From: Intrasporangium chromatireducens Q5-1
Lineage (GTDB): Bacteria > Actinomycetota > Actinomycetes > Actinomycetales > Dermatophilaceae
Direction: 5' to 3'
NCBI RefSeq assembly: GCF_000576575.1
Contig: NZ_AWQS01000002.1
Location: 1 to 64,000, forward strand
DNA length: 64,000 bases
The notes under the pieces are model-generated. The model did no database searches, was not told the origin of the DNA, and was given only the letters and a program-made list of their open reading frames with translations. Below are positions 1 through 10,011 of this stretch, in pieces. The position numbers and the translations under genes were made by a program. Every line of letters starts with the position of its first letter. Positions within the stretch are counted from its first letter, which is position 1.

Positions 1-145
1 CGTTCCGGATCCGGGGGCTCGCCGCGGCGCGCGCGGCCGCGTTGGGCCCGACGCCGGTCCGGACGACCGGCGGGCCACTGGGTCCTGCGCGCAGGGCGGC
101 TGCCTCCCGAGCGGACGGCGCACAGACGAGCACGGCCGTGCTCAC
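1..145 (-). CDS. hpnG: HpnG-type hopanoid phosphorylase, N-terminal fragment
   Basis: Only the first 48 codons are inside the window. A GTG start overlaps the shc stop (GTGA), and the frame stays open to the window edge. The translation begins VSTAVLVCAPSAREAAALRAG and continues with VVRTGVGPNAARAA. This matches the N-terminus of HpnG, a purine-nucleoside-phosphorylase-like enzyme that releases adenine from adenosylhopane to give ribosylhopane. Position directly after shc is the usual place for hpnG. The identification rests on a short N-terminus plus context, so the function is likely but not proven; the rest of the gene lies beyond position 1. Confidence 0.72.
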   Translation of the reverse strand, partial: MSTAVLVCAPSAREAAALRAGPSGPPVVRTGVGPNAAARAAASPRIRN

Positions 146-2088
146 GACAGGCTCCGCACGTAGCGCGCCAGCGCGCTGACCGGGAAGACGAGCCGGTAGA
201 GGTGGTAGTTGATGTAGAAGTCGCCGGGGAAGCCGGTGCCGGTGTAGTGCGGCTCGTCCCAGCCGCCGTCGGGCTGCTGGTGCTCCACGAGCCACTGCAC
301 GCCGCGCCGGACCGCGTCCGAGCCGGACTCTTCTGCGGCGAGCAGCCCGAGCAGGGCCCAGGCGGTCTGCGAGGCGGTGGAGGTGCCCCGCCCGCGCTGC
401 GACGGGTCCCGGTAGGAGCGCAGGTCCTCGCCCCAGCCGCCGTCGACGTTCTGCACCTGTTCGAGCCAGGCGGCGCCTCGCCGCACGGCCGGCTCCTGCG
501 GCTCCACCCCGACGGCGACGAGCGCGGGCAGGGCCGCCCCGGTCCCGTAGACGTGGTTGGCGCCCCAGCGCCCGAACCACGACCCGTCCGGCTCCTGGGC
601 ACGCAGCAGCCAGTCCCGGCCGGCCCGGGCGGCCGGGCTGGCGGCGCGGCCGGTCAGGCCGAGCAGCTCGACGACGTGCGCGGTGACGTCGGCGCTCGGG
701 GGATCGGTGACCGCGCCGAAGTCGCAGAACGGCAGGGCAAGGGGCAGGGTGCTGGTGTTCTCGGCGTCGAACGCGGCCCAGCCGCCGTCCCGGCACTGCA
801 TGCCCAGCACCCAGTCCGTCCCGCGCACGGCCGGGGCCGTCCCGCCAGCCCCGACCCGGTCGAGCCCGAGCACGACCTCCGCCGTGTCGTCGACGTCGGG
901 ATAGAGGTCGTTGTCGAACTCGAACGCCCAGCCGCCGGCGGCCAGGTGCGGGCGCCGCACCGCCCAGTCACCGCGCGTCGTGATCTCCTCGCGCAGCACC
1001 CAGTCGACGGCGCGGGCGACCGCGGGGTCGTCGTGCCGGAGGCCGGCGTCCCCGAGGGCGACGAGGGCGAGCGCGGTGTCCCACACGGGGGACTGGCAGG
1101 CCTCGATCCGCCGGACCGGCCCGTCGGGCGTCGGTTCCTCGACGGTGAACCGGCTCCACCCGCCCAGGCCCAGCTGCATGACCGGGTCGTCGAGGGGCCG
1201 CCCCAGGGTGCGCAGGGCCATCAGCGAGTAGACCCACGGCGGCTGGATGCCGCCCCAGGACCCGTCCGCCTCCTGGCGCTCGATGATCCAGGCCTCGGCC
1301 CGACGCAGCGCCCTGCTGCGCAGGCTGCCGGGGTGGTGCCGCTCGAAGACGCGCAGGCCCACGTCGAGCACCTGACCGAGCAGCGCCCGGCCCCGTTCCA
1401 TGGTGAGGCGGCGGTATGGCGCTGAGCCCGCCCCGCTCCCACGTGACGGGCGCGTCGGCGCCGGCTCAGCGGCATACAGCTCGGTGATGTCGAAGCCGAG
1501 GGCGGCGTGCGGACGCAACGCGCAGAGCACGGCGATCGGCACGATCGTCTGGCGTGCCCAGCAGGCGAAGTCGTGGACGGACAGGGGGACCCAGGCGGGC
1601 AGGAGGACCTGCTCGACCGGGACGGCCGGCAACCGGTCCCAGGGCCAGAGGCCGAAGAGGGCCAGCCAGATCCGGGTGAAGACGCGGGACTGCTCGAGAC
1701 CACCGAGGGCACGCACGACGTCCCGGGCCCGGACGAGGTGCGCGTCCTCGGGTCGGTCTCCGGCGAGTCGCAGGGCGAGGTAGGCCTCGACGGTCGTGGA
1801 GAGGTCGGCCGGGCCGCCATGGAAGGTCGCCCACGAGCCGTCCCCGCGCTGCTTGCTGCGGATCCACCGAGCGGTCCACTCCGTCTCCCGGTCGGTCCGG
1901 ATGCCGAGGAACTGACGCACGAGCAGGTCCTCGGCCTCGATGGTCACGTTCGTCTCGAGCTCGCCCTTCCACCATCCCTCCGGGTGCTGCAGGGCCCGGA
2001 GCCGGGCGACCGAGCGGTCGAGCGCCGAGCGGGCCGGCGACGTGCCGGGCTCGTCGGTCGTGAGGTTGCGGTCGGCTTGCATCGTCAT
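142..2088 (-). CDS. shc: squalene-hopene cyclase
   Basis: A 648-residue class II triterpene cyclase of normal family length that folds squalene into hopene at the membrane. The catalytic aspartate motif is DVDDTA, and at least five QW-type repeats are visible (QEADGSWGG, QCRDGGWAAF, QEPDGSWFGRWG, QNVDGGWGED, QQPDGGWDE). It follows the polyprenyl synthetase by 12 bp and overlaps the next gene by 4 bp, so it is translated within the hopanoid operon. The start MTMQADR is used; the internal MQADR two codons later is equally possible. The coding strand carries one copy of the dispersed 13-mer at 1465-1477, read as Tyr-Ala-Ala-Glu. Confidence 0.96.
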   Translation of the reverse strand: MTMQADRNLTTDEPGTSPARSALDRSVARLRALQHPEGWWKGELETNVTIEAEDLLVRQFLGIRTDRETEWTARWIRSKQRGDGSWATFHGGPADLSTTVEAYLALRLAGDRPEDAHLVRARDVVRALGGLEQSRVFTRIWLALFGLWPWDRLPAVPVEQVLLPAWVPLSVHDFACWARQTIVPIAVLCALRPHAALGFDITELYAAEPAPTRPSRGSGAGSAPYRRLTMERGRALLGQVLDVGLRVFERHHPGSLRSRALRRAEAWIIERQEADGSWGGIQPPWVYSLMALRTLGRPLDDPVMQLGLGGWSRFTVEEPTPDGPVRRIEACQSPVWDTALALVALGDAGLRHDDPAVARAVDWVLREEITTRGDWAVRRPHLAAGGWAFEFDNDLYPDVDDTAEVVLGLDRVGAGGTAPAVRGTDWVLGMQCRDGGWAAFDAENTSTLPLALPFCDFGAVTDPPSADVTAHVVELLGLTGRAASPAARAGRDWLLRAQEPDGSWFGRWGANHVYGTGAALPALVAVGVEPQEPAVRRGAAWLEQVQNVDGGWGEDLRSYRDPSQRGRGTSTASQTAWALLGLLAAEESGSDAVRRGVQWLVEHQQPDGGWDEPHYTGTGFPGDFYINYHLYRLVFPVSALARYVRSLS

Positions 2089-2100
2089 GCGGAAGTCCCT

Positions 2101-3114
2101 TCAGTGGTCCCGGCCGGCGAGGCGCGTCGCCATGGCGGCAAGCGGCGCCGCACGGTGCGGGTCGGGGAAGGCCTCCGCGAGCAGACGCAGGGCGGCATCG
2201 AGCTCGGCGGCGGCGCGGCGCTCGGCCCAGGTGCGGCCACCGGCCTCCTCCACGAGCTCGGCGGCCCGCGCCAGCTCGTCCTCGTCGAGCGGCGCCTCCT
2301 GGCGGTAGAGCGCGCGCAGGGCCGCGCCGGCCGCCGTGCCCGACGTGAGCGCTGCGACGATCGGTGCCGACTTCTTGCGGGAGCGCAGGTCGGACAGGAC
2401 CGGCTTGCCGGTGCGCTCCGTGGCGCCCCAGATGCCGAGCAGGTCGTCGTCGAGCTGGAAGGCGATGCCGACCCGCTCGCCGAACTCCGCCAGCGCGGCC
2501 GCCGAGCAGGCCGGGGCGTCGGCGAGCATGGGCCCGATCGAGCAGGCGCATGCGAGCAGCGCCCCGGTCTTGTCGGCCTCCATCCGCAGGCACTCCTCCA
2601 GGGCAACGTCGGGCCGGGTTTCGAAGGCGAGGTCGGCGGCCTGACCGGCGATGAGCCGCCGGGTCGTGGCGCTCAGGGCCTGGACCGCATAGCCGACCGT
2701 GGGAGAAGGAGCCTCGGCGAGGACCTCTCCCGCGAGGGCGAGCAGCGCGTCGCCGGCGAGCAGGGCCGTCGACAGGCCGAAGGCGGCCCACACCGTGGGG
2801 CGGTGGCGTCGGGACTCGTCACCGTCCATGACATCGTCGTGGACCAGGGAGAAGTTGTGCACGAGCTCGACGGCGACGGCCGCCGGGACCGCACTGAGCG
2901 GGTCACGGTTGGTCGCGGCGGTGCTGATGAGGACGAGCTCCGGACGAACGCCCTTGCCCGACAAGCCCGTCGGGACCCCATCGGCGTCCCAGAGGCCGAG
3001 GTGGTAGCCGCAGACGTGGCGCATCCGGGGGTCGAGGCGCTCGATGGAGGCGTGCAGTGCCTCACGGGTCGCCTCGCGGGCGATGGTCACGCTGTCGGTC
3101 ACGACGCTGGTCAT
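2101..3114 (-). CDS. polyprenyl diphosphate synthase (FPP/GGPP synthase type)
   Basis: A trans-isoprenyl diphosphate synthase of 337 residues, likely making the farnesyl diphosphate that HpnC and HpnD condense. Both aspartate-rich motifs are present: HDDVMDGD (DDxxD) and QLDDDLLG. The frame stays open far upstream, but the start MTSVVTDSV is preferred because its ATG overlaps the hpnE stop as ATGA, like its neighbours. Placement between hpnE and shc points to a dedicated prenyl donor for hopanoids. Product chain length cannot be read from the sequence alone, so farnesyl rather than geranylgeranyl diphosphate is inferred from context. Confidence 0.9.
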   Translation of the reverse strand: MTSVVTDSVTIAREATREALHASIERLDPRMRHVCGYHLGLWDADGVPTGLSGKGVRPELVLISTAATNRDPLSAVPAAVAVELVHNFSLVHDDVMDGDESRRHRPTVWAAFGLSTALLAGDALLALAGEVLAEAPSPTVGYAVQALSATTRRLIAGQAADLAFETRPDVALEECLRMEADKTGALLACACSIGPMLADAPACSAAALAEFGERVGIAFQLDDDLLGIWGATERTGKPVLSDLRSRKKSAPIVAALTSGTAAGAALRALYRQEAPLDEDELARAAELVEEAGGRTWAERRAAAELDAALRLLAEAFPDPHRAAPLAAMATRLAGRDH

Positions 3115-4523
3115 GACGTCACCTCCATCTGGGCTCGCGCGGGGGCGCTGACCCCGGCATCGCCGTGCTCGGTCGCGGTCATGGGGACTGACAGGAGCCG
3201 GGCCGCCGCCGCCCTGCCGCTGCGGACAGCGGCCTCGAGGGTGTCCGGCCACCCGGGGACGGTCCACGCGCCGGCCAGCGCGAGGTCCGGCCAGTGGGTC
3301 GTCGGACCGGGTCGCAGTCGTCCGGTGCCGGGGCGCTGCCTGAAGGTGGCGTGTGGCTCGCGGGTGACGAACGCCTCGAGGACGTGGGCGTGCTCGAGGC
3401 CCGGCAGGTGGCGGGCGAGCTCGGCCAGGTGCACCCGGACCAGGTCCTCCGTGCGCTCGTGGAGCGCGTCGTCGGCGGCGGAGACGGACGACACGAGGTA
3501 CTGCTCGCCACCAGCGGCGCGTCCGCTCGCCGCGGTGCGGTCGAAGACCCACTGGACGGCGCTGCCCGGGACCGCGGCGAACGGCACGGGCAGGACGGCG
3601 CGGTCGAACACGACGTGGACGTTGACGATCGGGGAGTGACCCAAGGCCTGCCAGCCCGCCGGGTCGTCGACAGCACCCGCGGGGACCAGCTGTGCGGCGT
3701 GGTCGTGGGGGACGGCCAGCACGACCGCCTCGGCCGGTAGCTCGGTCACCTGCTGGTGCCGGTCGCGGACGGCGACGACGAGCCCCCGGGCCCTGCGTTC
3801 GATGCGGACGACCTTGCTGCCCAGACGGACCCGGGCTCCTGCCGCGAGCAGCGCACTGCGTGGCGGTGCCTCGTGCAGCAGGCTGAGCGGGACCGTCGGG
3901 ATGCCGATGTCCCCGGCGTCGACCCGGTCGAGGAGACCGGTCCGGAAGACCCGGGCGGCGAGGGCGAGGGACGCCTCGTCGGGGGCGAGGTTGAGGGCGG
4001 CCGTGGTGACCAGGCCCCAGAGGCCCTCGGTCGTGGACGGGTCCTGACCGTGTCGCCGCAGCCACGTGCCGAACGCGTCGAGGTCGACGGCAGGGTCGTC
4101 CGGGTCGAGGTGCCGCAGGGCCGCGGCGGCCCTCAGGGCGGAGAGCCGGGCAGGTCCCGGCAGCGCGTCATACCGGAGCAGGGCGGCCAGCAGGTGCAGG
4201 GGTGGCGGGCCACGGTGTGACCGAGTCAGGTGGGCCCGCTCGCCGCGGGGCAGGAGCACCTCGATGTCGAGGCGGTCCTGCAGCGCGATGAGCGGGGTGA
4301 CGCCGAGGCGGTCGAGCAGGGCGAGGTAGTGCTCGTAGCAGCGCAGGACGACGTGCACTCCCGTGTCGACGGGCTGACCACGCCGTCGCCCCGACGTCGC
4401 CCGGCCGCCGAGCCTCGGGCGCGCCTCGAGCAGCGTGACCTCGCGTCCCGCGTCGGCGAGCCCGAGCGCTGCGGTGATCCCGGCGAGGCCGCCGCCGACG
4501 ACGATGACCGGCGGCGCGCTCAT
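3111..4523 (-). CDS. hpnE: hydroxysqualene dehydroxylase HpnE
   Basis: A 470-residue FAD-dependent amine-oxidase/phytoene-desaturase-like protein that reduces hydroxysqualene to squalene. The N-terminal dinucleotide-binding segment VVGGGLAGITAA and the following EARPRLGGRA are clear. It is flanked by hpnD and the prenyl synthase with ATGA overlaps on both sides, which fixes the start at the first ATG. Family and position in an hpnC-hpnD-hpnE set make the assignment strong; by sequence alone a carotenoid desaturase would be the alternative, but no carotenoid genes are nearby. Confidence 0.92.
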   Translation of the reverse strand: MSAPPVIVVGGGLAGITAALGLADAGREVTLLEARPRLGGRATSGRRRGQPVDTGVHVVLRCYEHYLALLDRLGVTPLIALQDRLDIEVLLPRGERAHLTRSHRGPPPLHLLAALLRYDALPGPARLSALRAAAALRHLDPDDPAVDLDAFGTWLRRHGQDPSTTEGLWGLVTTAALNLAPDEASLALAARVFRTGLLDRVDAGDIGIPTVPLSLLHEAPPRSALLAAGARVRLGSKVVRIERRARGLVVAVRDRHQQVTELPAEAVVLAVPHDHAAQLVPAGAVDDPAGWQALGHSPIVNVHVVFDRAVLPVPFAAVPGSAVQWVFDRTAASGRAAGGEQYLVSSVSAADDALHERTEDLVRVHLAELARHLPGLEHAHVLEAFVTREPHATFRQRPGTGRLRPGPTTHWPDLALAGAWTVPGWPDTLEAAVRSGRAAAARLLSVPMTATEHGDAGVSAPARAQMEVTS

Positions 4524-5506
4524 GCCGCACCTCGCACGATGGCGTGGACAGCCACCGACACCTTCGCCGACGTCGAGAGTGACAGCCGCTGGCCGCGGAC
4601 CGCGCTCGGCTCGGCGGCGATGCGGCCCAGGAGCCGGTGGTAGATGCCCGCCATGGCGGCGGTGCAGGCGGCGCTGCGTCGGTCCAGGAGGGGCAGCAAC
4701 GTCAGCCCCCGGGCGTACCAGGCCTCGGCCCGGCGCGCCTCGAACCGGACGAGCGCGTCGAAGTGACGGGGCGGGTCGGCGATCGCGCCGTCCAGCCCGA
4801 CGGCGAGCGTGCAGCCGAACCGGTCCAGGTCCTCCTGCGGCAGGTAGACGCGGCCCATGAGGCGGTCCTCACGGAGGTCGCGCAGGATGTTCGTCAGCTG
4901 GAGGGCGACCCCGAGGTCGTCGGCGAGCGGCTCCGCGTCGTCGAGCAGCAGCGGGTTGTAGACGCCGACCGACAGCCGGCCCACCGACCCGGCAACCTGC
5001 CGGCAGTATCCGACCACCTCCTCGAAGGTCTCGTAGCGGCGCCCCTCGACGTCGGCCAGGCAGCCGTCGACGAGGTCGTCGAAGGCATCGAGCGGGATCG
5101 GCAGCCGCTCGGCCGCGTCGGCCAGCGCAGTGAGGACCGCCCCCTCGAGCGGCGCGTCGTCCCGCGCACTCGGCGGGGAGGCGGAGGTCATGAGCGGGAC
5201 GGCGCCAGGCACGGAAGACGGGGCGGGGGACCAGTCCGGCGGGAGCGGGCCGGTGGGGAGCCGCCGCGGGTGGGCGCGTCGGCCCTCGATCGCGCCGAGA
5301 CAGGCCCGGAGCGCCTCCAGGGCACGCTCGCGCTCCGCCGCCGGGCCGTCACCGTCACCGATGTCGTCGATCCGGCGGGCGGTCGCGTAGACGGCGGAGA
5401 GGGCCTGGCGCTGCTCCCGGGGGAGCAGCCGGATCCCGTAGGAGAAGTTGTGCGCCTCGGCGCGGGTGATCTCCTCGCAGCGCTGGTAGGCAGTGGTGAC
5501 GTTCAT
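4520..5506 (-). CDS. hpnD: presqualene diphosphate synthase HpnD
   Basis: A squalene/phytoene synthase family enzyme (328 residues) that condenses two FPP to presqualene diphosphate. Aspartate-rich motifs are RRIDDIGDGD near the N-terminus and DLREDRLMGRVYLPQEDL toward the middle. An upstream in-frame ATG exists at 5536, but MNVTTAYQ is chosen because its ATG overlaps the hpnC stop (ATGA) and follows GGCGGG. The protein carries a Pro/Ser/Arg-rich stretch at roughly residues 80-120, between the first catalytic segment and the IPLDAFDDLVDG helix, that looks like an insertion compared with HpnC. Confidence 0.92.
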   Translation of the reverse strand: MNVTTAYQRCEEITRAEAHNFSYGIRLLPREQRQALSAVYATARRIDDIGDGDGPAAERERALEALRACLGAIEGRRAHPRRLPTGPLPPDWSPAPSSVPGAVPLMTSASPPSARDDAPLEGAVLTALADAAERLPIPLDAFDDLVDGCLADVEGRRYETFEEVVGYCRQVAGSVGRLSVGVYNPLLLDDAEPLADDLGVALQLTNILRDLREDRLMGRVYLPQEDLDRFGCTLAVGLDGAIADPPRHFDALVRFEARRAEAWYARGLTLLPLLDRRSAACTAAMAGIYHRLLGRIAAEPSAVRGQRLSLSTSAKVSVAVHAIVRGAA

Positions 5507-6327
5507 CCCGCCCGCCTCAGCAGGCCCTCGGCCCAAGCGGCCGCGATGTCGGACCGGGTCGGCTTCACCTGGCCCCCGAGGACGTCGTGGTCAGCGCGGC
5601 GGACCCGGCCGGCGGCGGCCCAGCCCCCGGCGACGTAGCCGGACACGGCAAGGCGGGCCCAGCCGTGCAGCGTCGACACGAGGGGGGCGCCGGCACCGAG
5701 CCAGGCCACTGCCCGTGTCGTCTCGAAGGCGACGAGCCGCCGCAGCGCGTCTCCGGCCCGCGCTGCCCCCAGGTCCTCCTCGGTCACCCCGAACCGGTCG
5801 AGGTCCTCCTTCGGCAGGTAGACCCGTCCCTCGGCGTAGTCCTCGCCGATGTCCTGCCAGTGCTCGAGGAGCTGCAGCGCGGTGCAGATCCGGTCGGACA
5901 GCTCGACCCGGTCGGGGGTCGCTGCGCCGAAGATCGTCAGGACGACCTCGCCGACCGGGTTCGCCGACAGCCGGCAGTAGTCCAGTAGCTCGGCGAAGCT
6001 CTGGTAGCGGGGGTGGTCCTGGTCGCGCAGGTTCGCTTCCACGAGGCGCAGCAGGCAGTCGGCGGGCACCCCGGCGCGGCGCACGAGGGGCCCCATGCCG
6101 GCGACCACTGGGTCCGTGACGGGCTCGCGCGCGTAGAGCCGCCGGACCTCGGCCGCGACCGCTTCGAGGGCGGCGACGCGGTCGCCGGTCAGCTCGTCGC
6201 CGAGGTCGTCGACGTAGCGGGCGTAGCGATACGTCGCGTGCAGCTCGGACCGCAGCCGCGCAGGCAGGATCCGCAACGCGACGGGGAAGTTCTCGCCGGC
6301 CTCGGCGGCTCGGACCGTAGCAGCCAT
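5503..6327 (-). CDS. hpnC: hydroxysqualene synthase HpnC
   Basis: The second squalene/phytoene synthase paralog (274 residues), which converts presqualene diphosphate to hydroxysqualene. Motifs include YARYVDDLGDE and HWQDIGEDYAEGRVYLPKEDL. It begins 8 bp after the dxs stop and overlaps hpnD by 4 bp. HpnC and HpnD are told apart here by order and by HpnC's typical N-terminus (ENFPVALRILP). Together with HpnE they form the three-enzyme bacterial squalene route used instead of a single squalene synthase. Confidence 0.92.
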   Translation of the reverse strand: MAATVRAAEAGENFPVALRILPARLRSELHATYRYARYVDDLGDELTGDRVAALEAVAAEVRRLYAREPVTDPVVAGMGPLVRRAGVPADCLLRLVEANLRDQDHPRYQSFAELLDYCRLSANPVGEVVLTIFGAATPDRVELSDRICTALQLLEHWQDIGEDYAEGRVYLPKEDLDRFGVTEEDLGAARAGDALRRLVAFETTRAVAWLGAGAPLVSTLHGWARLAVSGYVAGGWAAAGRVRRADHDVLGGQVKPTRSDIAAAWAEGLLRRAG

Positions 6328-6335
6328 GGCGGCCC

Positions 6336-8225
6336 TCAGGCGGGTCTCCGGACCCGAGCGTCCGGCTCCGCCCGGTCCCGTATGCCGCTCAGGCCGGCCG
6401 GCACGGAGAGCCGCGCCGCGACGGCGCGGGCGATGCCACTGGGATCAAGCCCGTGCTCACGCAGGATGCCGCCGCGGTCGCCGTGCGCGATGTACTCGGT
6501 TGGCAGCCCCAGCACCTCGACCGGGGTATCGACGCCGGTGTCGGCGACGGCCCGGGCGACGTGGGCGCCGACGCCGGAGGACCTCAGCCCGTCCTCGACC
6601 GTGACGACGAGGTCGTGCTCAGCCGCCAGGTCCGGCAGGGCCGGGTTGACCGGGAGCGCCCAGCGAGGGTCGACCACCGTGCAGCGGATCCCCTCGGCGA
6701 GGAGCCGGTCGGCCGCCTCGACCGCAGCGCCCGCGAGCGCTCCGACCGTCACGAGCAGGACGTCAGGGTTCGGGGGCCGGCGCAGGACGTCCATGCCGGC
6801 GACCCGGTCGAGCGCCGGGAGTGCCCCGGCCGCGGCGGCCTTCGGGAAGCGGAGGGCGGTCAGACCGGGCTGCTCCACCGCCTCGTCGAGCTCCTCGACG
6901 AGCGTGGCGGCATCCCGGGGGGCCGCGACCCGCATGCCTGGCACGCCGGCGAACAGGCTGAGGTCCCACAGGCCGTGGTGGCTGGGGCCGTCCGGGCCGG
7001 TGATGCCCGCCCGGTCGAGCACGAGCGTCACGGGCAGCCGGTGCAGACCCGCGTCGAGGAGAGTCTGGTCGAACGCGCGGTGCATGAAGGTCGAGTAGAT
7101 GGCGACGACGGGGTGCAGGCCGCCCATCGCCATACCGCTCGCGCTCACGAGGGCCTGTTGCTCCGCGATGCCGACGTCGATGCACCGCTCGGGGTGGCGC
7201 TGCGCCAGCGTGCGCAGGCCGGTGGGGCCCACCATCGCGGCGCTCACCGCCACGACGTCGGGACGCCGCTCGGCCACGGCGAGCAGCGCATCGCCGAACA
7301 CGTCGGTCCAGGTCCGGCTGGGCACGCTGCTCGGTGCGCCGGTGCGGGCGTCGACCACGCCGATGGAGTGGAGGTGGTCGGCCTCGTCGTTGACCGCGGG
7401 CAGGTAGCCGTGCCCCTTCTCGGTGCGAACGTGCACGAGGACCGGGTGGTCGCACCCTCGCGCCTGCCGCAGGGCCGTCTCCAGGGCGTCGAGGTCGTGC
7501 CCGTCGACCGGGCCGAGGTAGTCCAGGCCCATGGCCTGGAACAGGCTGACCCCGCGGGTCGCGTCACGGCCCGGCGCGACGGGTTGCGAGCCATCGCTGG
7601 CGCCGCTGCCGAGCCGCGCCACGACCGCCGGATAGCCGGCCCGGTCCACCAGGCGACGCAGGTGCTCGGGGAGTGCTCCCACCGTCGGGGCGTAGGAGCG
7701 TTCGTTGTCGTTGAGCACCACGACGATGCGCCGGCCGGACGCGCCGATGTTGTTCAGGCCCTCCCAGGCGAGGCCGCCGGTCATGGCGCCGTCCCCGATG
7801 ACGGCGACGACCGGCTGTGCTGCGCCTCGGCTCGCGAGGGCCCGGCTCAACCCGTCGGCATAGGCCAGCGCCGTCGACGCGTGGGAGTTCTCGACGAGGT
7901 CATGGGGAGACTCATGTCGCTTGGGATAGCCCGACAGCCCTCCGCTCCTGCGCAGTGAAGGGAACTGGGGCAGCCGGCCGGTCAGCAGCTTGTGGACGTA
8001 GGCCTGGTGGCCCGTGTCGAACACGATCGGGGTGCTCGGCGAGTGGAAGACCCGGTGCAGGGCGATCGTCAGCTCGACGACACCGAGGTTGGGTCCGAGG
8101 TGGCCGCCGGTCGCACAGACCGAGTCGACGAGGACCTGTCGGATCTCCTGCGCCAGCTGGACGAGGCTCTCGGAGTCGAGCTCACCGAGGTCTTCCGGGC
8201 GGTGGATTGTTGCCAGAATGGACAT
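6336..8225 (-). CDS. dxs: 1-deoxy-D-xylulose-5-phosphate synthase
   Basis: Thiamine-diphosphate enzyme (629 residues) that condenses pyruvate and glyceraldehyde 3-phosphate, the first step of the MEP isoprenoid route. Visible signatures: FDTGHQAYVHK, the ThDP motif GDGAMTGGLAWEGLNN, and DRAGITGPDGPSHHG. The open frame extends to 8321, but MSILATIHRPEDL at 8225 is preceded by GGAGCGAAGG and fits the family N-terminus. As first gene of the hopanoid operon it would raise precursor supply together with hopanoid enzymes. A copy of the 13-mer lies in its 3' end (6380-6392). Whether this is the only dxs in the genome cannot be told. Confidence 0.94.
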   Translation of the reverse strand: MSILATIHRPEDLGELDSESLVQLAQEIRQVLVDSVCATGGHLGPNLGVVELTIALHRVFHSPSTPIVFDTGHQAYVHKLLTGRLPQFPSLRRSGGLSGYPKRHESPHDLVENSHASTALAYADGLSRALASRGAAQPVVAVIGDGAMTGGLAWEGLNNIGASGRRIVVVLNDNERSYAPTVGALPEHLRRLVDRAGYPAVVARLGSGASDGSQPVAPGRDATRGVSLFQAMGLDYLGPVDGHDLDALETALRQARGCDHPVLVHVRTEKGHGYLPAVNDEADHLHSIGVVDARTGAPSSVPSRTWTDVFGDALLAVAERRPDVVAVSAAMVGPTGLRTLAQRHPERCIDVGIAEQQALVSASGMAMGGLHPVVAIYSTFMHRAFDQTLLDAGLHRLPVTLVLDRAGITGPDGPSHHGLWDLSLFAGVPGMRVAAPRDAATLVEELDEAVEQPGLTALRFPKAAAAGALPALDRVAGMDVLRRPPNPDVLLVTVGALAGAAVEAADRLLAEGIRCTVVDPRWALPVNPALPDLAAEHDLVVTVEDGLRSSGVGAHVARAVADTGVDTPVEVLGLPTEYIAHGDRGGILREHGLDPSGIARAVAARLSVPAGLSGIRDRAEPDARVRRPA

Positions 8226-8265
8226 CGTGCCTTCGCTCCGGTCACGGCCGAGGGAGGTCATGGCC

Positions 8266-8288
8266 ATTACATCGGGATGCGATCTAAT
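8266..8288. promoter_or_regulatory. candidate MarR operator upstream of dxs/hopanoid operon
   Basis: Inverted repeat with 9-nt arms ATTACATCG and CGATCTAAT around a 5-nt spacer; eight of nine arm positions pair. It lies in an AT-richer island about 41 bp before the dxs start, between marR and dxs. A separate perfect 10-bp palindrome, GGGTATACCC, is at 8293-8302. Size and symmetry fit a MarR dimer site, but binding is inferred. Confidence 0.5.
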
Positions 8289-8317
8289 TCGAGGGTATAC
8301 CCACCGGCGCCGGCAGA

Positions 8318-8797
8318 TCACTGCCCAATTCGCGTATCCGGCCCAAGGAATTTCGCTGAGAGAGTGGTGAGAAACTCCTCGGAGATGCTGAGCGTCTCCG
8401 CCGCCCGCTCGAGCTCGGCCAGGTGGGCGCTCGCAAGGCCGTCGAGCAGCTCGTGTGCCCGGTCGGTCAGCGACACCCGCACCACCCGCTGGTCACGGGG
8501 GTCACGGTCGCGGGCGACGAGGCCCAGCGCCTCGGCCCGGTTGACCAGCTCGATCGCGCTGTTGGGGCGGATGAGCAGCTCGGCCGCCAGGTCGCCGACG
8601 CTGGGTGGCGCCTCACCGACCCAGGCTCGGACCGCGAGGAGCAGGAGGTACTGCTGGGGGGTCAGCCCGGCCGTGCGGACCCGCTGCTCACTCCACTTGG
8701 TGAACTGCAGCATCGCCCGGCGGAACGTGAAGAGCATGGCGAACTGGTCACCCGTCAACGGTTCGGGACGGGTGGTGGGCTCGTCCTGGTCGCCCAT
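8318..8797 (-). CDS. MarR family transcriptional regulator
   Basis: A 159-residue winged-helix protein. The core reads LTPQQYLLLLAVRAW, then the recognition region SVGDLAAELLIRPNSAIELVNRAEALGLVARDRDPRDQR, then a C-terminal helix. The upstream in-frame ATG at 8848 is rejected for MGDQDEP at 8797, which has a strong GGAGGT site six bases before it. It sits on the same strand directly upstream of dxs with about 90 bp between, so it is a likely regulator of the hopanoid operon and perhaps of itself. Its ligand is unknown. Confidence 0.85.
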   Translation of the reverse strand: MGDQDEPTTRPEPLTGDQFAMLFTFRRAMLQFTKWSEQRVRTAGLTPQQYLLLLAVRAWVGEAPPSVGDLAAELLIRPNSAIELVNRAEALGLVARDRDPRDQRVVRVSLTDRAHELLDGLASAHLAELERAAETLSISEEFLTTLSAKFLGPDTRIGQ

Positions 8798-8817
8798 GGC
8801 CGCACCTCCGCGTGATG

Positions 8818-8829
8818 ATTCGATCGTAT
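8818..8829. promoter_or_regulatory. possible marR promoter with near-palindromic site
   Basis: ATTCGATCGTAT on the plus strand. Read on the minus strand it contains TACGAT, a plausible -10 for marR, and it shares the ATTnnATCG-like half-site seen at 8266-8288. This suggests autoregulation, but the resemblance is short. Confidence 0.3.
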
Positions 8830-8866
8830 GCCGACCCGCAGTCCCCACGACCCGGGCACAGGCTGG

Positions 8867-9244
8867 TCAGGTGCGCACGTAGGCGTCCAGCAGCCGGTTG
8901 AGCTCGGCCCCGGGATCCGCGGTGAGGCCCCCGTGGACGGGGCCCGGCTGCACGACGGTGGACCGGGGGGCGATGATCCAGCCGAAGCGCTGGCCCGGCT
9001 TGTCGAAGGTCGGCAGCCCGCGCCCACTCTCACCGCGACACAGCGCCTGGAGGCGCTCGAGGACGGCCCGGACGCCGTCAAGGTCACAGCCAGGCGCGAA
9101 GCAGCCTGCCCGCCGCTCGTCGATCTCCCAGGCGGCATCGAGAAAGCCCGCGTCCTGGCTGTAGAGGACGACGCCGACGTTGAGGAACTCCTCGCGGTCG
9201 ACGCGCGGCACGAGGCGCAGGACGACGTACTGGTAGCCGTTCAC
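8867..9244 (-). CDS. DUF3037 family protein
   Basis: A 125-residue protein starting VNGYQYVVLRLVPRVDREEFLNVGVVL, the hallmark N-terminus of DUF3037. The GTG start overlaps the stop of the HipA-like gene as GTGA, so the two are co-translated. No catalytic motif or membrane segment is visible. The family is often encoded next to a HipA-like kinase and has no established function; a role as partner or antagonist of the kinase-like neighbour is only an inference. Confidence 0.82.
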   Translation of the reverse strand: MNGYQYVVLRLVPRVDREEFLNVGVVLYSQDAGFLDAAWEIDERRAGCFAPGCDLDGVRAVLERLQALCRGESGRGLPTFDKPGQRFGWIIAPRSTVVQPGPVHGGLTADPGAELNRLLDAYVRT

Positions 9245-10011
9245 CGGTCGCCCCCGGTGGGCAGCCACGCGCGCGGGTCGGCGAGACGGGCACTCAGCAT
9301 CGACACGTATGCCGCTCGCACCGCGGATGCGTCGGTGAGCCACGGCGTCGGCTCGAGCCACTCATCGGGCACCTCGTCGACCGCCGCGACGAGGGCCGGC
9401 CGCGGGAGCAGAGCCGACAGCTCGGCGTGACGGGCGGCGACATCACCGGCGACATCCCGCAGGACGTGCCGGCTCGCGTCGAACGGTTGCGCCGCAAAGC
9501 GATCCGGGTCCGGCGCCCTGCCGGGCCAGGAGTGGTGGAAGTACAGGGCGGCGCCGTGGTCGATCGCGTAGGTCCGGCCGTGCCACACGAGCAGGTTGGG
9601 GTTGGACCAGGTGCGGTCGACGTTCGCGGTGAGGGAGTCCAGCCAGATGATCCGCTCGGCGAGCTCCCTCGGCGGCGGCAGCGCGCCGTCGTAGCCGAGC
9701 GCTCCGGGGAGGAAGTCGACCCCGAGGTTCGTGCCGATCGAGGCGGTGAGGAGGTCCTGGACCTCCTCGTCCGCCTCGTACTTGGCGATCCGCTCGTCCA
9801 GGTCGACGACGGCGAGGTCCGGGACCGGCACGTCGAGGAGCCGGGCCAGCGCAGCGACGATGACCTCCGCGACGAGGACCTTGATCCCCTGCCCCGCGCC
9901 CCGGAACTTGAGCACGTAGGTGCCGCAGTCGCTCGCCTCGACGATGCCGGGCAGCGAGCCGCCCTCCTTCAGGGGGGTGACGTAGCGAGTCGCACGGATC
10001 TGGGGAAGCAC
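9241..10011 (-). CDS. HipA-like kinase-fold protein
   Basis: A 256-residue protein with a protein-kinase-like core: a lysine strand in YVLKFRGAGQGIKVLVAEVIV, the segment IIWLDSLTANVDRTWSNPNLLVW resembling the HipA catalytic loop (D...N-R-x-x-x-N), and YAIDHGAALYF as the metal-binding Asp motif. It starts at a GTG 13 bp after the ilvA stop, with the frame open further upstream as shadow. It lacks the N-terminal HipA subdomain and so resembles the short HipA_2 type. Toxin activity is not established. A partial 13-mer copy (GTATGCCGCTC) lies at 9307-9317. Confidence 0.75.
   Translation of the reverse strand: MLPQIRATRYVTPLKEGGSLPGIVEASDCGTYVLKFRGAGQGIKVLVAEVIVAALARLLDVPVPDLAVVDLDERIAKYEADEEVQDLLTASIGTNLGVDFLPGALGYDGALPPPRELAERIIWLDSLTANVDRTWSNPNLLVWHGRTYAIDHGAALYFHHSWPGRAPDPDRFAAQPFDASRHVLRDVAGDVAARHAELSALLPRPALVAAVDEVPDEWLEPTPWLTDASAVRAAYVSMLSARLADPRAWLPTGGDR

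Follow-up and report, generated by a model that had tools for sequence, protein, structure and literature searches.

A palindrome between marR and a second dxs gene is a probable MarR operator of the hopanoid gene cluster in Intrasporangium

Introduction

Classical MarR operators are inverted repeats of 16–20 bp that lie over the −35 and −10 elements (summarised in PMC5401885, PMC7432914). The nearest precedent for the regulator described here is CrtR of Corynebacterium glutamicum, a MarR-type repressor of the carotenoid operon that is released by GGPP (PMC5401885, PMC7432914). CrtR and its actinobacterial orthologs apparently use a single binding site for the operon and their own gene and have a small regulon (PMC5401885, PMC7432914, PMC6739363). 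Our searches returned no dedicated transcriptional switch for actinomycete hopanoid genes and no report of MarR control of hopanoid genes, the latter, from a search of the accessible papers, being weak evidence of novelty.

The locus studied here lies in a window of 64,000 nucleotides, i.e., the whole stretch of DNA that was analysed, in which a marR gene is followed by a palindrome (O1), a dxs gene and a run of hopanoid (hpn) genes. Like CrtR, the window MarR belongs to the MarR type, and its gene lies beside an isoprenoid operon. The CrtR site, however, is centred on TTAA (PMC5401885, PMC7432914), whereas the centre of O1 is GGATG, and crtR is divergent from crtE, whereas marR is co-directional with the dxs-hpn run. 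The two proteins also differ in the number of residues before the HTH (~72 in CrtR, ~44 in the window MarR), and CrtR acts on carotenoid genes with GGPP as its ligand, in contrast to the dxs-hpn genes proposed as the target here. The site motif without a central TTAA and the gene orientation thus rule out the window MarR as CrtR. With classical MarR operators O1 shares two-fold symmetry, a place beside the regulator gene and a presumed location in the target promoter region, but its visible symmetry extends over 23 bp around a 5-bp spacer. The original prediction described joint control of dxs and hopanoid assembly by one MarR switch as not a standard arrangement. For hopanoid genes this description holds up within the literature searched, although CrtR already provides a known MarR switch on an isoprenoid operon.

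Results

The features of the locus are listed in Table 1. The genes hpnC, hpnD, hpnE and shc occur together, as in a hopanoid operon, with HpnD just under its profile threshold. From dxs to shc, neighbouring genes touch or leave almost no gap, so that a single operon is likely. Two observations support a dxs start at 8225: an RBS-like GGAGCGAAGG ahead of it, which is kept in the congener (G050, an Intrasporangium sp. MAG and the sole other genome of the genus compared), and an indel in that genome that disrupts the reading frame farther upstream. The window genome also has a housekeeping dxs at a different location (contig C127), which is 52% identical to the cluster copy. Two dxs copies are also present in the congener, in G708 (from a different order) and in G165 (same order, different family).

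Table 1. Coordinates of the features in the 64-kb window
Feature	Position	Strand	Basis
Proposed MarR operator O1, ATTACATCG-GGATG-CGATCTAAT	8266..8288	.	Inverted repeat, congener identity, rank by relatives' matrix
Weak second candidate operator O2, ATCGTATGCCGAC	8823..8835	.	Core 7/8; relatives' matrix
marR, proposed local regulator, 159 aa	8318..8797	-	Pfam MarR_2; clade with dxs-linked MarRs
dxs, second (cluster) copy, 1-deoxy-D-xylulose-5-phosphate synthase, 629 aa	6336..8225	-	TIGR00204 above cut-off
hpnC	5503..6327	-	TIGR03464 above cut-off
hpnD	4520..5506	-	Best match TIGR03465, slightly below cut-off
hpnE	3111..4523	-	TIGR03467 above cut-off
Polyprenyl (probably farnesyl) diphosphate synthase	2101..3084 (start codon provisional)	-	PF00348
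shc, squalene-hopene cyclase	142..2088	-	TIGR01507 above cut-off

The regulator matches PF12802 (MarR_2) at 35.6 bits against a cut-off of 27, which assigns it a MarR winged-helix domain; MarR chains in the PDB are matched by the profile as well. An AlphaFold model computed from two sequences, of low confidence with a mean pLDDT of only 62, places helices at 16–42, 47–58, 67–75 and 81–90, two strands, and helices at 112–136 and 140–151, an order that fits the helix-helix-HTH-wing-helix arrangement. No other protein of the same genome matches the window MarR at E<=1e-10, making it the best candidate binder of O1. Relatives of the window MarR were not found on plasmids. The same strand carries, immediately upstream of marR, a DUF3037 gene and a HipA-like kinase region (window 8867–9259 and upstream), and the DUF3037 gene is kept at this place in the congener.

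The marR-dxs gap is 92 bp long (8226–8317) and contains O1, 29 bp past marR and 40 bp ahead of the dxs start. The palindrome, its coordinates and its single arm mismatch proved exactly as predicted (8/9 positions complementary, spacer 5 bp), and the gene coordinates confirmed its location just downstream of marR and ahead of dxs on the same strand. The description of its surroundings as the AT-richest part of the region holds only approximately, since by 60-bp steps a segment at the 3' end of marR is richer in AT (53% GC at 8320–8379 vs 57% at 8260–8319). As a bare inverted repeat O1 is unremarkable and not significant: with 9-bp arms, at most one mismatch and a spacer of 0–12, ~12% of simulated intergenic regions of the same composition hold a repeat this good. 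Within the window, O1 is the only AT-rich-armed inverted repeat of such quality. Its core, ATCG-N5-CGAT (8271–8283), occurs once in the 64 kb, and a strict pattern search of its own genome allowing up to three mismatches returned no further copies of O1.

The gene order is the same in the congener, whose MarR and Dxs share 79% and 77% identity, respectively, with those of the window. A block of 22 bp, CATTACATCGGGATGCGATCTA, is identical between the window and this genome, an exact conservation that comes from one genome pair only. The intergenic flanks differ, and the stretch between the site and marR is diverged with gaps; the other conserved stretch in the intergenic region is the RBS-like sequence ahead of dxs.

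To obtain a motif independently of the window, upstream regions of related marR genes (40–50% identity) were collected from the family, order and class, and 4-mer dyads were counted de novo in 35 of these regions; the set contained neither the window genus nor the two syntenic genomes. The dyad TCGT-N3-ACGA was present in 14/35 regions (expected 0.18) and ATCG-N5-CGAT in 10/35 (expected 0.22), while the highest count for any dyad across 200 shuffled sets was 7. Both dyads describe a single palindrome, (T)ATCGTNNNACGAT(A), read in two registers. A matrix was then built from 18 relatives' sites picked by the de novo dyads with the window excluded; an earlier matrix had used sites picked by the window's own core, and the dyad-based repeat gave the same outcome. 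By this relatives' matrix, O1 (at 8267) ranks first in the 64 kb with 18.5 bits, the runner-up reaching 5.2, and a score at this level has P ~0.001 in simulated intergenic sequence (all P values use first-order Markov nulls). O1 is a two-fold symmetric site beside the regulator gene that shares its core ATCG-N5-CGAT exactly with the sites of related MarRs. The inner bases beside the core are T/A in the relatives (ATCGT/ACGAT) vs G/G in the window, and the recognition-helix segment is RPNS in the window MarR vs mostly RHHS in the relatives. The relatives' MarRs (L004–L014, L031, L034, L035, L116, L124–L132) thus resemble the window MarR in identity and core, but their palindrome precedes their own marR gene rather than dxs, and unlike the window none of these loci showed a neighbouring dxs or hpn gene within the stretches that were read.

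The second candidate, O2, lies 25 bp ahead of the marR start and overlaps a TANNNT-like TACGAT. Its matrix match (8819–8839, 5.2 bits) is the second or third best in the 64 kb (P ~0.02), and it is poorly kept in the congener (core 6/8).

Among the hpnC loci read, a marR-dxs pair heads the cluster in the window genome (G000), the congener and G708. In G165, a cluster-type dxs (the best match, 65%) and a related marR (~50%) share one contig and are split by an apparently inserted gene pair. Other actinomycete hopanoid clusters (e.g., L074–L104) have the order hpnC-hpnD-hpnE-(prenyltransferase)-shc as in the window, but without the marR and dxs head. In G708, CTCG-GACCG-CGAC lies between marR and dxs (7.6 bits, P 0.006, relatives' matrix). 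In G165, dxs is preceded at 50–75 bp by two matches, CTATCG-CCACC-CGACG and TTCTATCG-GCAGC-CGAT, the best scoring 11.0 bits (P 0.002, same matrix). The matches in these two genomes are degenerate compared with O1, and the exact site is found in two genomes only. As controls, 25 hpnC upstream regions from clusters lacking marR gave a best score of 5.4 bits, most being negative, and the highest score in housekeeping dxs regions was 3.4. The expectation that the palindrome is conserved along with marR-dxs synteny was thus borne out exactly at the genus level, but at ~50% MarR identity the similarity is limited to the core. A similar palindrome in G165, AATACATAGGGGCGCTATGTAAT (L143:1501–1523), comes after purA and another gene; it lies 8 bp from a contig end, too close for interpretation, and was left out of the evidence. 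By eye, the pair inserted between marR and dxs in G165 (L146:1336–2890) resembles a DUF2384/RES toxin-antitoxin pair.

In the MarR tree, the four proteins linked to dxs group together as a single clade (support 98/98), in which the MarR of G708, from outside the order, is closer to the window MarR than that of G165 from the same order (98/75). This pattern fits transfer of marR along with the cluster, without proving it. Apart from the window genome, HpnC was detected at E<=1e-30 in 2/396 sampled genomes of the order and in 73/297 genomes of the class. The hopanoid cluster at 142–8225 is therefore found in a lineage whose order mostly does not have it, a patchy distribution that suggests gain by transfer or patchy retention.

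Discussion

Sequence comparison supports the reading of O1 as a MarR operator through its identity in the congener, the core shared with relatives, the first rank by matrix and the weaker matches in G165 and G708. We consider it probable that O1 is the main operator of the MarR encoded immediately upstream and that it controls dxs-hpn.

Exact conservation of a 22-bp block ahead of a gene is compatible with regulatory elements of any kind, and O1 might instead be the operator of another regulator or an element of the dxs promoter, with MarR acting elsewhere. The inner bases of O1, which are unlike the relatives' consensus, would agree with this, as would the failure to locate a promoter: no sigma-70-type promoter was recognised in 8150–8950. 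Both congeners have a SigB-like GGGTA[TC] upstream; it was rejected as a promoter because no matching −35 was seen. However, the core and spacing of O1 are those of the motif that the de novo count gave for the relatives' marR upstream regions, O1 outranks every other position of the 64 kb by the relatives' matrix, and a TANNNT-type −10 is absent from both strands of the conserved block. This explanation is accordingly unlikely, although it is the strongest of the alternatives.

Lying on the transcribed strand with a co-directional gene on either side, the inverted repeat could also act as RNA, as a weak terminator, an attenuator or a leader structure. Yet the stem is AT-rich with a mismatch, there is no T tract and no terminator-like site, no Rfam match was obtained at E<=1, and the one arm change in the congener is uncompensated, so that a hairpin function appears very improbable. 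That O1 is a functionless chance repeat is equally hard to credit, despite the frequency of such repeats in simulated sequence, given its exact conservation in the congener amid diverged flanks and its match to an independently derived motif.

If O1 is the MarR operator, the MarR dimer would place one recognition helix on each ATCG half, the half-sites being about one helical turn apart. The bound dimer may block dxs-hpn transcription, a sign of control assumed from the family, and release of MarR from O1 would come through a ligand, for which an isoprenoid or a signal of membrane stress is plausible; upon release, precursor supply and hopanoid assembly would rise together. The weaker O2 over the marR promoter could add mild autoregulation. 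Because the cluster dxs is a second copy, such a switch would add precursor flux for hopanoids and leave the housekeeping supply untouched. A single-site regulator would then couple precursor supply through the second dxs to hopanoid assembly. The switch appears to be of an ordinary kind, but in a place for which the searchable literature gave no description. More speculatively, marR-dxs-hpn may be a mobile cassette with its own MarR clade, dedicated to sensing a metabolite of the isoprenoid or hopanoid pathway and to setting the second dxs and hopanoid assembly via O1 as a direct feedback or feed-forward switch, a proposal we hold only tentatively and consider less likely than not.

The comparison would also yield a candidate operator motif for a MarR subfamily widespread in Actinomycetes. 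No description of the relatives' palindrome was found in a search of the accessible literature. Members of this subfamily carry a clear candidate operator, (T)ATCGTNNNACGAT(A), upstream of their own gene (L004, L005, L008, L009, L011, L012, L013, L031, L035, L116, L124, L125, L128–L132), in several of these genomes as two tandem copies. Several of the related marR genes (L034 and L125 regions) appear, from their translated flanks read by eye, to be divergent from a ClC-type chloride channel-like gene.
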